From Patagioenas fasciata (lineage: Eukaryota; Chordata; Aves; Columbiformes; Columbidae): a DNA stretch of 64,000 bases. This document shows, in pieces, positions 18 to 62,226 of the stretch (within the stretch, counting starts at the first letter, position 1; the number at the start of each line of letters is the position of its first letter). The stretch spans positions 26,314,367 to 26,378,366 of the forward strand of contig NC_092525.1 in the NCBI RefSeq assembly GCF_037038585.1, in the 5' to 3' direction. The notes under the pieces were generated by a model that saw nothing but the letters and a program-made list of their open reading frames with translations, had not been told where the DNA came from and ran no database searches. The position numbers and the translations under genes are program-made.

Positions 18-25001
<24,984 letters not shown>

Positions 25002-26003
25002 AGGCTATACTAAAAAGAAAAAAAAAAAAGTGCTTTTTCATGTGCAAAAATCTTAATGTAAGAAGTATAAGATTTCTTCCTCTTCCCACCTTTTTTTTAG
25101 AAGACATTTACTGCGGTACCAGTTTTTCAAAGGTACAAATGTAAAGAAATACTAGAAACTTTTAGAGAGCGACAAAGAACTGTGAAAGTTGAATTTTTAT
25201 GTAGATTTGCATTTAATACTTCTTCAGAAACCTTTTCACTATTTTTATACTTTTTCTTTTAAAAATAAGTACAGTGTAATACTACGCTGGACAGTGGGAA
25301 GGATTTTTTTTTTACTTCTGTAACAAGGAGAAAAGCAACTCAGAACAACAAGGTTAGTGTGTTGCAAAAACAGCTCTCTCTTCAAAACTATTAGCAAGTA
25401 AATTAACCCAATTGGTAGGCATATATGGCAGCATTTCAGGAGTGCTGACTAAGCACTGCTTTAATAATACTCCATGGAACTTGTGGGACTTTGCCAAAGA
25501 GTTTACTGTTTACATCATGGGGCAATTCCAAGGAAGTCAGATTTACAAATACTCTGGATGTCCTCCTGTATCAATGTGGGATAGAAATTTCTGCATTTTT
25601 CTAACATGCCTCAAGGTGTCCTTGTTGCTCCACATATATTAATCTGAGATTTCAGTGTTCTGACTCCAAGAAGAGTTTGGAGATTGGCATTTGAATGATT
25701 GCAACGATTCTGATAAAAAACTCTTTCTGTTTACTCTTAGAGCGTACAGTATTGTGTGCTTGCACATCTGTTTCTTAGCTTACTGTTATTTAAAGGAATT
25801 GCTTCCATGAATGCGTCTGACCTGTTTTCAGAATTAGAAAATACTTAGATGCTTTTCCTCCAAACCTTGTAGATTTTAATTGGTATAGGATTATTTTTTT
25901 TCATCATGAAGTTTTGTATGTTACAATTGTGCTATTTTTACTATTTCTTGCTGGATTTTAGCTCACTGTTTTTAGAAGAAAATAAAAAATAATTAGTAGT
26001 TGA
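25002..26003 (+). other. PTPRC: PTPRC 3' UTR (approximate end)
   Basis: AT-rich non-coding stretch straight after the stop codon, starting with a purine/A-rich run, with scattered ATTTA pentamers and an AATAAA at 25981-25986. The end is set about 15-20 nt past that signal and is approximate. A roughly 1-kb UTR fits CD45 transcripts. Confidence 0.7.
25981..25986 (+). promoter_or_regulatory. PTPRC: Poly(A) signal AATAAA of PTPRC
   Basis: Canonical hexamer about 980 nt after the stop, followed some 40 nt later by a T/G-rich TTTTGTTCT element. No other clean AATAAA was noticed between the stop codon and this point. Confidence 0.7.
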
Positions 26004-26996
26004 CAAAGTGGAAATTATTTTGTTCTATTGGACTCAACAAACTGATCATCTTCTTCTAAATGCACAGTCTTGTGTTATCCCATACATGGAAAAAATTTAC
26101 AAATTTCAGTAGGAAAACACACCTTTTAATTCTTATAAAACTGTGTGTGAAGCCAGGTAAGTGTCATGATTCTCCCATTACAGAGGAAGGAAAACTCATT
26201 TTTCTTTTGCATGAAGTCATTAAAGGAACAGTCACTCAGCAGATTCAGTGCTCCTGAATCACTGCATATTCCTAACCTCTCTTTACAAAACATAATTGAA
26301 AATTCTTAGAGACCATGTAAACAACATGTACAGTTGCACTTGGTTAAAAAATTAATTTAATTTTGCTGTTACTCTAGATCAAGTATTTCATTCACAGTTA
26401 TCAGCTCAGACAAGTGCTTCCTGGCAGTCTTGGTTGAACACATGTCAGCAAACAGGGACCGAGGCAGTGGGATTCCCCTCGACTGGCAGCTGAGCTGCTT
26501 TTCCAGCTGAAGCTCTGAGAGGTGATAAACTAACAAAGCTGAGGGAATAACCTGTGGAGAAAAAGCTCTTGAGGCTAAATGTGAAGGTAATATACAAAAA
26601 TAGTATGCTCAAAACCTGTTGGCTGTTTTTAGAGGAACATGTTGAAATGGCAAAGTTAGCATACCCATGAAGATCAAAAGGATAAGGAGCCTTAGACGCA
26701 GATTGACTTAATGGTGGTCATTGGATGACAGAGAGCAATTAATTTATTTTTCCTCTTCTAAGATTTGGCCACTGTAAAGCCTCCCTACCTAGTTCAGGTA
26801 GTAAAATAAAAAGGTCAGTGCATCTGCCTATTGCAAGAATGTGGCGACAGAGACTAGTCACACTGTTATGAATAACTGAAAATATTGGCAACATTTTAAT
26901 TTTGTTTAAATCTGGGGGCACTAATACTCCTCATTTCCTTGAAAAATGGCTCTCCAGCTTTTTAAGCTCCTGAGCTGTAAATACCGGAAGCTCGGG

Positions 26997-45645: not shown

Positions 45646-48600
45646 AAGTTACATTAAATTGCAGTCCAGATTTCTGTGCTATGTGCTATCATTTGGGGAT
45701 TTTCATATCAAAAGCCTTCAGATGGAATGTTGAAATGGTTATTACGCATCAAGCAAAAACATTTTCCAGAAGCAGTGATGAAAGAAGTACCACTGATCTC
45801 ATTTCAGTTTCCGTTTTTAGAGTAAGGGTAACAGCTCTGGAATGAGACTGAATGCGGTGGTTTTCCCTGCATGATGGAAAGCGAGCAGGTCATTTTGCCA
45901 GGTTTCCAGTACCTGAGCAATTGCCTGGGTGGAAAAAAGCAAATAGTGGATTCTCAGAGCTAAAATAATGGATTGCGTTTATCCAGATTCTTCTTGTTTA
46001 CTTTATTATTACTTGGATTTTTCAAAGGTGGCTAAGATAGCAATGTATTACGTTTTTACTCCTAAAACATTGAAAATCCCAGCCCAAAAAGTAAATTAAT
46101 AAACTAACAACAAGTTTTCTGTGTCTCACACAGACCACCATGGTAGTTGAAATCACCCTGCAACATATTACTTAATTTGCCAGCTTTCATCATCCCACAG
46201 TTGACTTCATTCTTTATCGAACACAGTAGAACCCTGGTTACCCTCAAATAGCTTTGTGAGACAGGTTTCCATGTTGCTGCTTGTGAATGATAAAGGCTTA
46301 GCTCACTCTCATAAGGACCTTACTTTTTCAAACTTCTTAAGACTGACAAATGTAGAAACTAAATTAATTTTGGTCAAGCTGCAAGTGAATAAAAATGCTG
46401 CTCTGTATCACCTTGTACTATGCAACCACCACTCTACCTTGGAGATCCAAAGCATGATTAACATATGCTGTGTAGTTTGAACAGGCTTTTCAGATTTTGA
46501 ATTAAGATTTATACAGGAAGGAGAGACTTGCTTGTCAATATGCCTGGAAATTGTTGGGAGGAAAGGGAATGAGTGGTAATGAGAGATCATCGAATGGCAT
46601 ATTTTATCCTTGTATCTTCATATTTTGCTTGTCATTGCCTTTCGCATTTTTCTTAAGCTCCATTATGAGTAAATGCTATTTTTATGGGTACACCAAAACT
46701 GCATAGATTCTGGTAATTCCTTGGTATGAAGGAAAGTCGAAACATAGCAGAAATTTCTTTCTGCATTGACATCAACTTTTTGCTTATGCTTCTGGGCTTT
46801 TCTATAGTGTTTATAAAGCAAATAGACATCTGCTTTGCTTGCCTCAATTGTAGCCTTTGGATCCAATGAAATAGCTTTTACCATGTGATATTTAACTTGT
46901 CCAAGTGATAATAGTGCTGACTTTTTACATGGATATTGGTTCTTATGCTTTTGGAAGTCCTGCATGACTCTTTGGGTGAAGAATATACAATCTGGGGTGT
47001 CATGGTGGCAACAAGGGGCAAAGCCTGCTGCAGTGGAAGGAGGCTAACAGGAGCAAGACAGTAACTCAGTTCTGTCTCGATTTATTGTGCAGTACATTCC
47101 CTGAAGTGATGGTTTGTCCACTACCAAATTTTTCTTTGGTGGTGTCTAGAGAAAATTAATATGTATTCTGTCCCCAGACTACCAGTTATGTTTACTACCC
47201 ATGTCAACATGTATCAAAATCCTAACAAATGTAAAGGTGTTCTTTGCAAAATATAATTGAATACTGCTTAGCAAAAGGCTTTGCAATCTCCCAGTTACAT
47301 ATGTGCATTGAAGTACAGATGTTAAATAAAGCTAGACTTTTTCAGTTCAGTGATTGAATTAGTGCATTTGGGAGGAAGAGAGAGGAAATGGTTTCAGGAC
47401 AAACCAAACCAGATGGGAGAAGGTGGGGGTTAGCTTTCCCATCACTTACTTGTGGGTGAACTCAAATACATGGTCTGAAAATAATGTTTTAACTTAGGAA
47501 TTATTTTATATGTGTTTAATCTGCATTAAAAAGAGGTTATTCTAGATGAAAAATGTTCCATGTTTTTGCTTGAAAATACTAAAACAAATGATTCTAAGCT
47601 TCTAATTTTTCTCCTGTCTGTTTTGATTCACATTTTTCATGCAATTTGACTGAAAAATCAGAAAAGGCTTGTTTTTCGGAGCAAATGTGTTTTCAGGTCG
47701 ATTCATCAATTTGTTGTCAGGGGACAGGAAAGTCCAGTTGCTATACTAAATGCTTTGGTTCATTTATTGCATGTTTAACTGCTGTTATTTGTTCCTCAAG
47801 ACTGATCTGAGAGAAGAATGATTTCTTAGCTAAAGTTACACCAGGTCTGTCCATATCAAATGACACAAAAAATGAACCTATCACACAACCTTATTTTAAT
47901 TTTCCCTAATGTCTCTTTGGTGAGAACTGAGGGTTTTTTTCCCTCAATGTCCTTTTGAAAAATTTAGTGAGATACGAAATTACTGTACATTGTGTACAGT
48001 AATACTATATTCAGAAGCATTCATTTTTTATTTCAAATAGAATTTTCCATGAGAAGAGAGATGTTAAATCTTTCTGATCAGCAGAAATACCCTCTGTAAT
48101 TCTAATTTTGGAATCTCACTTGATTAGATGGTAAAGGTAATACACTCGCTAGTTGATGGAGCTGTTTTGATCCCAGTCATAAAAGTCACCACAGACTGAT
48201 GCTACATATTACTCCATTTACTAGAAGCTGATGTTTGTAGACAGTTGGAAAGGTGAGTGCTGTGGTTACTGCATCTTTTTGGCTCAAGACATTTATGCTT
48301 TTCTAGATGAAAGTAGAACATAAGTTTGCTGGAAGCCAGATTATTTTTTTTAATGAACTCTTTACAGTTGAGGGGGGAACAAAACACAGATGAAGTGTCA
48401 TTGTGGACAGATTCAGTAACTTTGTATGTAGTAATACCTTTAATTAGACCAACAGAATAAATATTGCACACAGACTTTAGGGATCTCATAAAAGATTTAC
48501 CCTGACAAAGAGGAAATTGGTGCAACTGGAGGATAATTCCAACAGGAACTGCAAACTGGAAAGAACAGTATCTCCTAGCTTCTTGTGCATTGATTCTTGC

Positions 48601-58500: not shown

Positions 58501-58690
58501 TTTTTTTGGTTTTTTTTTTTTTTTACAGCTAAATTAAACATTTAAAAACAAACAAGCAAAAAGTGAATACCCCAAACTATATATATGTATATATATATAT
58601 TTTTTTTACAAGAAAAATGTAGCCTATAAGAAGTGTTTGCTTCTCATTACTGCTTTCAGAGCTGATGTTCCTCTCGATGGCAACTGTAAA
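55544..58690. other. Intergenic, possibly within the mir-181 host transcript (- strand)
   Basis: No coding gene. The segment lies downstream of the microRNA hairpins in their - strand direction and so may be part of the host primary transcript. A stretch near 55625-55665 (ATCTGTAAAGC) faintly recalls a SINE 3' end. A (TA)n/T run lies at 58577-58607. Confidence 0.5.
58577..58607. repeat. (TA)n microsatellite followed by T run
   Basis: Alternating TA with one TG interruption, then a short T run, about 85 bases from the mir-181b-1 hairpin. Confidence 0.85.
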
Positions 58691-58691
58691 A

Positions 58692-58800
58692 TGTGGGGCC
58701 ACAGTTGCATTCATTGTTCAGTGAGCTTGTCCACATAGTTAAACCCACCGACAGCAATGAATGTTGATTGTGACCTTTTTTTTTGTAAAGCTTTGCAGGG
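58692..58800 (-). ncRNA. MIR181B1: mir-181b-1 precursor hairpin
   Basis: Read on the - strand, the 5p arm at 58743-58765 begins with the miR-181 seed AACAUUC and continues AUUGCUGUCGGUGGGU, the miR-181b form. The 3p arm at 58705-58725 begins CUCACUGAACAAUGAAUGCAA and pairs back with the 5p arm. Loop and flanks (GGUCACAAUCAACAUUC before, GUGGCCCC after) follow the vertebrate precursor closely. Precursor ends are set by analogy to the human hairpin and may be off by a few bases. Transcribed from the same strand as mir-181a-1, opposite to PTPRC. Mature miR-181b guides Argonaute to repress target mRNAs in lymphoid and other tissues. Confidence 0.96.
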
Positions 58801-58867
58801 TGGGGGAGAAATATCATGTGGTGGTTAGGTTGCTATCTTCGATGTTAAGGCCTGAAAGCATGAAGTA

Positions 58868-58975
58868 AGGAGGAGGATGGTTAGCTGGAGGGTACAATCA
58901 ACGGTCGATGGTTTTCACTTTAATTCCAAACTCACCGACAGCGTTGAATGTTCACTGAAGCAACCACTACAACAG
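58868..58975 (-). ncRNA. MIR181A1: mir-181a-1 precursor hairpin
   Basis: On the - strand the 5p arm at 58930-58952 begins AACAUUC and continues AACGCUGUCGGUGAGU, the exact miR-181a form. The 3p arm at 58891-58912 begins ACCAUCGACCGUUGAUUGU, the star sequence that marks the a-1 paralogue. The preceding GGUUGCUUCAGUG and following GCUAACCAUC also match the vertebrate hairpin. It lies about 65 nt upstream of mir-181b-1 in the transcribed direction, so both come from one primary transcript. miR-181a raises T-cell receptor sensitivity in mammals by damping several phosphatases. Hairpin ends are approximate. Confidence 0.97.
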
Positions 58976-61900
58976 AACTCCATTGACTTGACAGCATCTG
59001 AAAATGTCTGAAAGGAGGGGGGGAAATCAACACTGACGCAACAATTTCAGTCATGCAAACGATGCAGCTTCAGTCACTTTTCTCTTACCAACACAAATAC
59101 CCTTCTCTGCCCATCCTATTTCTGTCTTCGTGCAAGGAGTTGGCAGTTTTCCAAACTTCTTTCTATGAAAAAGAAGATATTTCACTCATTCAGGCTTTAG
59201 GAACAGAAGTTAGAGGTCCAGGCACAAATGGATTAATTCTGTCTGTTATTTCACAAAACCGAACTTCACAGCAAACCAAAACACAAGATCCCATGTATCA
59301 GCAGAGCTGGCTAAAAGTTTTATGAATTACTGTTGTCAATCATAGATTGTCCAATTGACTGACATGGTTCAATTGGATTTAAACTTGCTTAGGATTGGTG
59401 AAAACTATATTTTCTTTTAAGAAGACTAAATTTCTCCATTAACATCTTATAGAGAAAGAGGGCCTTTCTTCCTTACCGATTGTCATACATGCAGAGCCTG
59501 TTATAGTAGCTTTCAGGAGGAAAAAAGACAACTGTACATCAAGGATTGATTACTTAAATTTCTATTCATCTATTTTTTTAGGTGACAACATGCTGTCCAT
59601 ATCCAGACCTTCATCATGACACAATAAAGTGCTTATTCTTAAAAATGTCCATATTAGCACAATTTCCAGTCTTCTGAGCCATTCAACTTAATTGTCCTTA
59701 TTCTTAAAATAAATATTTTTTAAAAAATATACACATCTGTGGGATTGCGATTATTGTATTAGGGGAAGAGTTTTAGAGGCTGGATCAGAAGGCAAAACAT
59801 GGTAAACTAGGAAATTTACCTTATTTGCATTTGTGGGCAGAGTTCTGCAGAGGGTCATCTTGCAGCTCAGCTGGTCTGAGTTCTTTTTTGCTAGGTCCAC
59901 TCTTAGCTTGGTGTATAGAAATGACTGTCTTCTATGCATTGTTGTTTATCTTGTCATTTGGTGAAAGATGCCTTGTACTCTTTTTCATCCAGTTCTGATT
60001 ATTTTAAAAAATCACAGTATATCTAAAGGCTGGAGTGTCATTAATATAGCCTGTTGGGGAACTAGACAAGAAAGGAATCAACTAATTTTCTTCTGTATGG
60101 TAGATTAGATGTGTTTTGTATAGGAAAACCACTGTGGTTATGAATATATCTGAATTCTAATCAAATGTGGCAGTCAACTTTTTTTTTCCGATAGAGCAGC
60201 ATGAGATGTTTTGTCTTAAGCTCCAAAGTTTATTATTTCTTTTTTTTTTTTTTTTTTTTCTCCATTTATTTGTACTTACTTTTTGACAGTTTAATTTTGT
60301 GGTGTTACAAAAGGAATTCCTCATACCTGCAGGAGTGATGAGAGAATAAGGGTCTCCAACTCAGGAATATTTTGTGCACCTGTTCAACAGGGTCACTCAT
60401 GTTTGACACCCATCCTATTAAAAGCTGTCTTGCCATACACTCATTTCTTTCAGTACTTACTCCTATGCCCTTGTTCTGTGCTTCCATCTAGCACCTCATG
60501 TTTCCATATGGGGTCTTGCCTGGCTGATACCTGGTAGTTAGGATGGGCTGCAGGGAAGGAGAGGAGCTATGGAGAGCTTGTGACTGGGTGGATTGCATCT
60601 TAGAAGGAATTACTTCCACAGGTTTTTCCCTCCCTGGCCCCCATAACAGAAAAACCTCAGTTCCTTGGTTACTCAACCTCTGTCGAAACAGGCTGAAACT
60701 TGTAAGTACAAAACCACAAAACAGTATTCCTGAACTCCAGCTCTGAACCCTGATGTGTGCAGGTTATGCAGGGTAAAAATGCTTTCATCTTCTCTCATCT
60801 GGTTTTAATTAAAAAAACAAAAAAGAAAAAATCCCTTACCAGTCTTAGCTAGCTGTTATAAATGCCAGCTTTATTTTAAGTTTTATTTCAGATCTGCAGG
60901 CTTATGTGAACATTCAGATTTGATGTATGGTTTTTTTTATATAAGGTTAGTAGGTCATAAATAAACCAAAGCACTTTCCTTGCTATGAGCAATAGGGTCA
61001 TGGTGTACATGAAATATCGCTTTAAAAAAATTGGAAGCTAACATGAATTGACAGAGATACGTGAGGAAGTAGTTCGTTGTGTTGCTGTAAAGGCCATAGG
61101 GATTTGGACTGCTGGAGTTGCCTGTCTTAGGAATAGATTAGATATCTTGTCTGATGACCTGTACTTAATTTAAGTGACTGCCTTTGCCAGTCCTTCCAGA
61201 GGGCAACTGTGTGAAGTAGAGCATCTCATCCTCAGTCTTCAGTCCTTTTCCTTCTCTTGATGGCCTGACCTAAATTGAAGATATGCGTGTTGCACTGCAC
61301 AATTACTTCAGTGCTATGTGAACTGCATGTTTGGTTCTAAATAGTCAGCCTTTCCATTTTGGCCTTGCTTTCTTGAATCAAAAGACTAATGTTCAACTTC
61401 ATTTTACTGGTTAATACTGGCAACTATTATACAGTACACTCATGTTTAGCAGCTGCTTTATGTAAAACAATAACAAAAGCTCCCTCTCCTTACGTAGAAA
61501 TAGTGGCTGGAGCGGCGAAGTGCTGCTCTGCCCTGCTTGGTGCCCCACCTCTTCCTTTTCTTCCTTCTCCCTCCCCCCAATACTTGATGAAATATAAATA
61601 ATAGATGTCAGGTCTGGCTTGCAGACTACTTCAAATAGCTGTTTTAGTACTTTAAACAATGTCACTGCTTGCACAGTGGTGAGATCACTTAGGAAAAAAT
61701 ATTTAGGTAAATAAAAACAATCTCAGGTTTGGGGAGTTTCTGATGATTTTAGATAACTTCCTTAATGATGCATTCAAACATTCTATTCAGATTGTACACT
61801 GATTAAAATAGCATGTTAACTTATTTATATGGTGGATACTCTGCATTGTTTACAGCATCTTCTTTAGCTGGCATTGAATTGTTACTGGAGTTAATACCTT

Positions 61901-62144: not shown

Positions 62145-62226
62145 GATCAGATTCTCAGCTAGCGTAAACTGACACAGCTCCGCTGACGTCAGTGGCATCT
62201 GCGTTTACACCAGCTGGCACCTGGAT
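62145..62226. repeat. Palindromic MITE-like ancient repeat relic
   Basis: An imperfect inverted repeat of about 80 bp centred between 62187 and 62188, where CTGAC meets GTCAG. Left arm CAGCTAGCGTAAACTGAC mirrors right arm GTTTACACCAGCTGG. The pattern recalls a hairpin-type interspersed repeat seen in many copies in turtles and crocodilians (CAGCTGGTGTAAA arms). Family assignment is from memory. Confidence 0.6.

Follow-up and report, generated by a model that had tools for sequence, protein, structure and literature searches.

A mir-181a-1/mir-181b-1 cluster converging with PTPRC (CD45) in Patagioenas fasciata

Two microRNA hairpins of the mir-181 family lie beyond the end of the CD45 gene PTPRC in Patagioenas fasciata, and the locus raises the question of which mir-181 cluster this is and why it stands beside PTPRC. 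We analysed a stretch of 64,000 nucleotides (hereafter the window; C6:26314367-26378366) from an assembly of 1.45 Gb in 359 contigs. The whole window was searched against Rfam on both strands, which returned two matches at the gathering score, both to RF00076 mir-181 (gathering score 45.5 bits). These two full hairpins are on the minus strand, 187 bp apart from 5p arm start to 5p arm start, and point towards PTPRC. The best overall explanation, which we hold with high confidence, is the vertebrate mir-181a-1/mir-181b-1 cluster converging with PTPRC. The features of the locus are as follows.

15632..25001, plus strand: PTPRC (CD45), coding pieces for both phosphatase domains of the cytoplasmic part, to the stop; 13 of 13 pieces in order, domain 2 matching 1ygr
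25002..25986, plus strand: PTPRC 3' untranslated region to the first AATAAA (at 25981), the presumptive mRNA end
58695..58776, minus strand: mir-181b-1 precursor hairpin; RF00076, 72.8 bits, E 6.7e-15, model 1-83 of 83; fold z -4.82
58705..58725, minus strand: miR-181b-1 3p arm; single occurrence; 0/21 differences from what we take to be the human b-1 arm and 1/20 from what we take to be the b-2 arm
58743..58765, minus strand: presumed miR-181b 5p arm, main mature product; single occurrence
58881..58963, minus strand: mir-181a-1 precursor hairpin; RF00076, 77.5 bits, E 2.9e-16, model 1-83 of 83; fold z -3.66
58891..58912, minus strand: miR-181a-1 3p arm; 0/22 differences from hsa-miR-181a-1-3p and 3/22 from hsa-miR-181a-2-3p, as excerpted from PMC8728617
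58930..58952, minus strand: miR-181a 5p arm, the principal mature product; no difference from the hsa-miR-181a-5p sequence given in PMC8728617

The peptide pieces of PTPRC all fall in rising order between 15632 and 24827 on the plus strand, and the last frame closes at the stop codon at 24999-25001. When the pieces of the second phosphatase domain were joined by eye, the best solved match was CD45 (1ygr, E 5.6e-130), and the next match, PTP-alpha, was far weaker (E 7e-81); this search used domain 2, and domain 1 was placed in order by its pieces. The distance from the stop codon to the nearer hairpin edge is 33,694 bp, in agreement with the roughly 33 kb given by the first-pass annotation of this DNA, and ~32.7 kb separates the first AATAAA after the stop from the nearer hairpin. 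The hairpins had also been called antisense. They are indeed on the minus strand, but they do not overlap PTPRC; the two units converge and the term was loose.

Both hairpins are complete with both arms, as had been described: the model matches are full-length, all four arms were placed, and each arm occurs once in the window, on the minus strand only. Folded alone, the mir-181a-1 hairpin reached -24.7 kcal/mol (z -3.66) and the mir-181b-1 hairpin -33.2 kcal/mol (z -4.82), and in neither case was any of 200 shuffles equally good. Joint folding of the 291 bases of 58690-58980 (minus strand) also gave both hairpins, but the signal was weaker (z -2.51; of 200 shuffles, 4 were equally good). At E <=0.5, Rfam gave four extra rows, all under their own gathering scores, two of which are the plus-strand complements of the two mir-181 hairpins. 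A mir-5365 match at 48149-48225 (plus strand) is under its gathering score, and a weak mir-1756 match at 62148-62223 (minus strand; 33.6 bits vs a gathering score of 100) is perhaps chance or repeat. The claim that no open reading frame covers the hairpins is literally untrue, as stop-to-stop and ATG frames overlap 58695-58963: a putative 66-aa stop-to-stop frame at 58538-58738 (plus strand) overlaps the b hairpin, and eight putative ATG frames of 22-53 aa touch the interval (frames >=20 aa counted). Judged by the usual positions of Drosha motifs, the predicted processing signals are mixed: in mir-181a-1 a basal UG sits at -14 and a CNNC motif follows the 3p arm at +17/+18, and in mir-181b-1, which has neither at the usual place, position -14 is AA and CNNC occurs at +6, +8 and +25 only.

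The names mir-181a-1/b-1 and PTPRC given by the first-pass annotation were borne out by the Rfam matches, the 3p arm, the pair spacing and the CD45 match; the assignment to a-1/b-1, made from sequence, rests jointly on the 3p arm, the spacing and the PTPRC neighbour. Across the genome we found at least five mir-181 matches in three places, namely the window pair, a pair on contig C27 and a single copy on contig C39; the five came from 57 of 122,189 first-look candidates that were scored and are thus a lower bound. The lone hairpin at C39:3733242-3733324 (local L005 1501-1583, minus strand; 61.7 bits, z -3.12) sits in a stretch of 70-72% GC on a contig of 4.1 Mb. Its 5p arm is that of miR-181a, its 3p arm has 5/22 differences from each human a arm, and no second hairpin was found in 9.9 kb around it. 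It may be the counterpart of mir-181c/d, which to our knowledge is absent from chicken miRBase. The miR-181a sequence gave 0 matches in viral contigs and the miR-181a/b pattern 0 matches in prokaryote contigs, as is expected for a vertebrate gene. The contig that holds the window, C6, has 56,105,523 bases and exceeds chicken chromosome 8 (~30 Mb), a length compatible with a chromosome fusion in this lineage. The C27 pair (local L007 4398-5392, plus strand) has its members 914 bp apart, compared with 1640 bp for chicken a-2/b-2 in the excerpted text of PMC2777939, and we infer that it is a-2/b-2.

Could a rearrangement have moved another mir-181 cluster, a-2/b-2 or c/d, beside PTPRC? The mature 5p products leave room for this, since the 5p arms, which in both window hairpins carry the seed ACAUUCA, are identical between the clusters of this genome; chicken 5p reads are for the same reason not locus-specific. 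Moreover, each 3p arm of the C27 pair is one base off the a-1 or b-1 reference. With 1/22 differences from hsa-miR-181a-1-3p and 2/22 from hsa-miR-181a-2-3p (references excerpted from PMC8728617), the C27 a copy is likewise nearer the human a-1 arm, so that in this genome the 3p arm does little to tell the paralogues apart, and we dropped it as decisive for a-1 versus a-2. Still, the window arms are exact to the a-1 reference as printed and to the b-1 reference as we assume it, whereas the C27 arms are inexact. Spacing separates the clusters further. In the portion of PMC2777939 used here, chicken mir-181a-1/b-1 is on chromosome 8 with annotated starts 189 bp apart, and mir-181a-2/b-2 is on chromosome 17 with annotated starts 1640 bp apart; the 187 bp seen here fits the former and not the wider a-2/b-2. 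The remaining two mir-181 places are elsewhere in the genome, on C27 and C39, and the neighbours of human PTPRC are MIR181B1 and MIR181A1 (PMC5677966, PMC9318831, in excerpt). Taken with these points, a relocated cluster is extremely improbable.

The mir-181a-1/b-1 assignment is in line with the known relatives of the pair. Chicken gga-mir-181a-1 and gga-mir-181b-1 are the same two precursors, with the 189 bp measured between annotated starts and our 187 bp between 5p arms (PMC2777939). The a-2/b-2 pair (C27 here by inference, chromosome 17 in chicken, an NR6A1 intron in human) is paralogous and has the same 5p arms, but its spacing is wider and the C27 3p arms are unlike those of the window. 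Human MIR181A1 has miR-181a 5p and a-1 3p arms identical to those of the window (PMC8728617, in excerpt). The window departs from the human sequence at 3 of the 24 bases of the a-1 reverse primer site.

PTPRC and the cluster in human presumably lie on opposing strands, at a distance that we take to be ~100 kb, compared with 33.7 kb here. The first-pass annotation had spoken of a compacted interval. It is shorter, at about one third of the assumed human distance, but little of this is left for a special compaction to explain: the human genome is ~3.1 Gb, the 1.45 Gb of this genome is ~0.47 of that, and the shorter interval is therefore mostly a matter of general genome size. PTPRC of chicken is presumably also on chromosome 8. 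The mammal-like arrangement that had been proposed holds for the adjacency of PTPRC and mir-181, which human MIR181A1 and MIR181B1, in MIR181A1HG, share (PMC5677966, PMC9318831, in excerpt), its human strands and spacing being those assumed above. A 1q region list runs PTPRC, MIR181B1, MIR181A1, without strands and not in strict chromosome order throughout (PMC9318831), and miR-181a and miR-181b are assigned to 1q32.1 in the excerpted text of PMC10537407. In an excerpt of PMC5677966, the position hg38 chr1:198808343 carries a multiple-sclerosis variant, annotated as intergenic, whose closest genes include MIR181A1HG, MIR181B1, MIR181A1 and PTPRC. The position of mir-181a-1/b-1 downstream of PTPRC is thus a real, ordinary and already known arrangement.

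A single primary transcript, the counterpart of human MIR181A1HG, would run leftwards through both hairpins, which Drosha and Dicer would excise; the 5p arms would then be loaded into Argonaute and would damp mRNAs through their seed, in lymphocytes those of phosphatases and others. The targets of miR-181 in thymocytes include mRNAs of phosphatases that restrain T-cell-receptor signalling. The human cluster is listed as intronic to the non-coding MIR181A1HG, and human mir-181a-2/b-2 as intronic to NR6A1 (PMC8232258, in excerpt). In human mesenchymal stem cells the RNA of MIR181A1HG is nuclear and interacts with chromatin (PMC9095685), and human and mouse transcript accessions are tabulated for mir-181a-1~181b-1 (PMC2632650), each according to the excerpted text. 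During thymocyte selection the level of mir-181a/b-1 is very high (excerpt of PMC6428341), and small-RNA reads of chicken mir-181a-1 and b-1 came from lung and trachea (excerpt of PMC2777939). Against this reading, no host transcript turned up. To the right of the hairpins, nothing CpG-island-like within the window passed our filter, and the next 9.9 kb beyond the window held one barely passing stretch (GC 0.48, CpG o/e 0.21); a CpG-island promoter of the host transcript was rejected over this range, the right side of the window plus the 9.9 kb. Ten frames, sampled from the 252 window frames of >=60 aa, were compared with Pfam (eight between PTPRC and the hairpins, two right of the hairpins). 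None had a match above the curated cut-off, and three weak matches in two frames were each under theirs. A protein gene in the interval was rejected on this ten-frame sample, which a small gene could escape.

Does the neighbourhood reflect a functional tie? One possibility is that miR-181 from the cluster directly represses PTPRC in a local feedback loop, for which there is the nearness of the two and a single 8mer-type site at 24205 (plus strand). That site, however, is apparently intronic, ahead of the coding piece at 24234, and the stretch 25002-26030 contains no 8mer, 7mer-m8 or 7mer-A1 seed site for miR-181. PTPRC is thus probably not a miR-181 target via its 3' end, as far as seed pairing predicts; we rejected direct repression on the lack of seed sites in 25002-26030 and regard such a loop as very improbable. 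Another possibility is that shared lymphoid enhancers in the interval keep PTPRC and mir-181a-1/b-1 together. PTPRC and miR-181 both act in lymphocytes, they are neighbours here and in human (PMC5677966, PMC9318831), and both are among the genes closest to the intergenic multiple-sclerosis variant (PMC5677966, in excerpt). Against this, inheritance alone can preserve gene order, and in the papers retrieved on PTPRC with mir-181a-1, with the mir-181 cluster in chicken and with MIR181A1HG, judged mainly by titles and abstract openings, a shared-enhancer proposal was not found. We consider enhancers as the force that keeps the genes together unlikely. The fuller form, in which the interval would have been one lymphoid regulatory domain since early amniotes, with shared enhancers co-setting CD45 and miR-181 and hence the T-cell-receptor threshold, is distinctly unlikely. 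The adjacency of PTPRC and mir-181 is most simply inherited gene order.

The result adds one further genome to a known arrangement, a mir-181a-1/b-1 cluster that converges with PTPRC. Were shared enhancers to prove true, they would explain why an immune phosphatase has stayed beside a phosphatase-tuning microRNA, and would aid the interpretation of the human multiple-sclerosis variant that an excerpt of PMC5677966 annotates near both.
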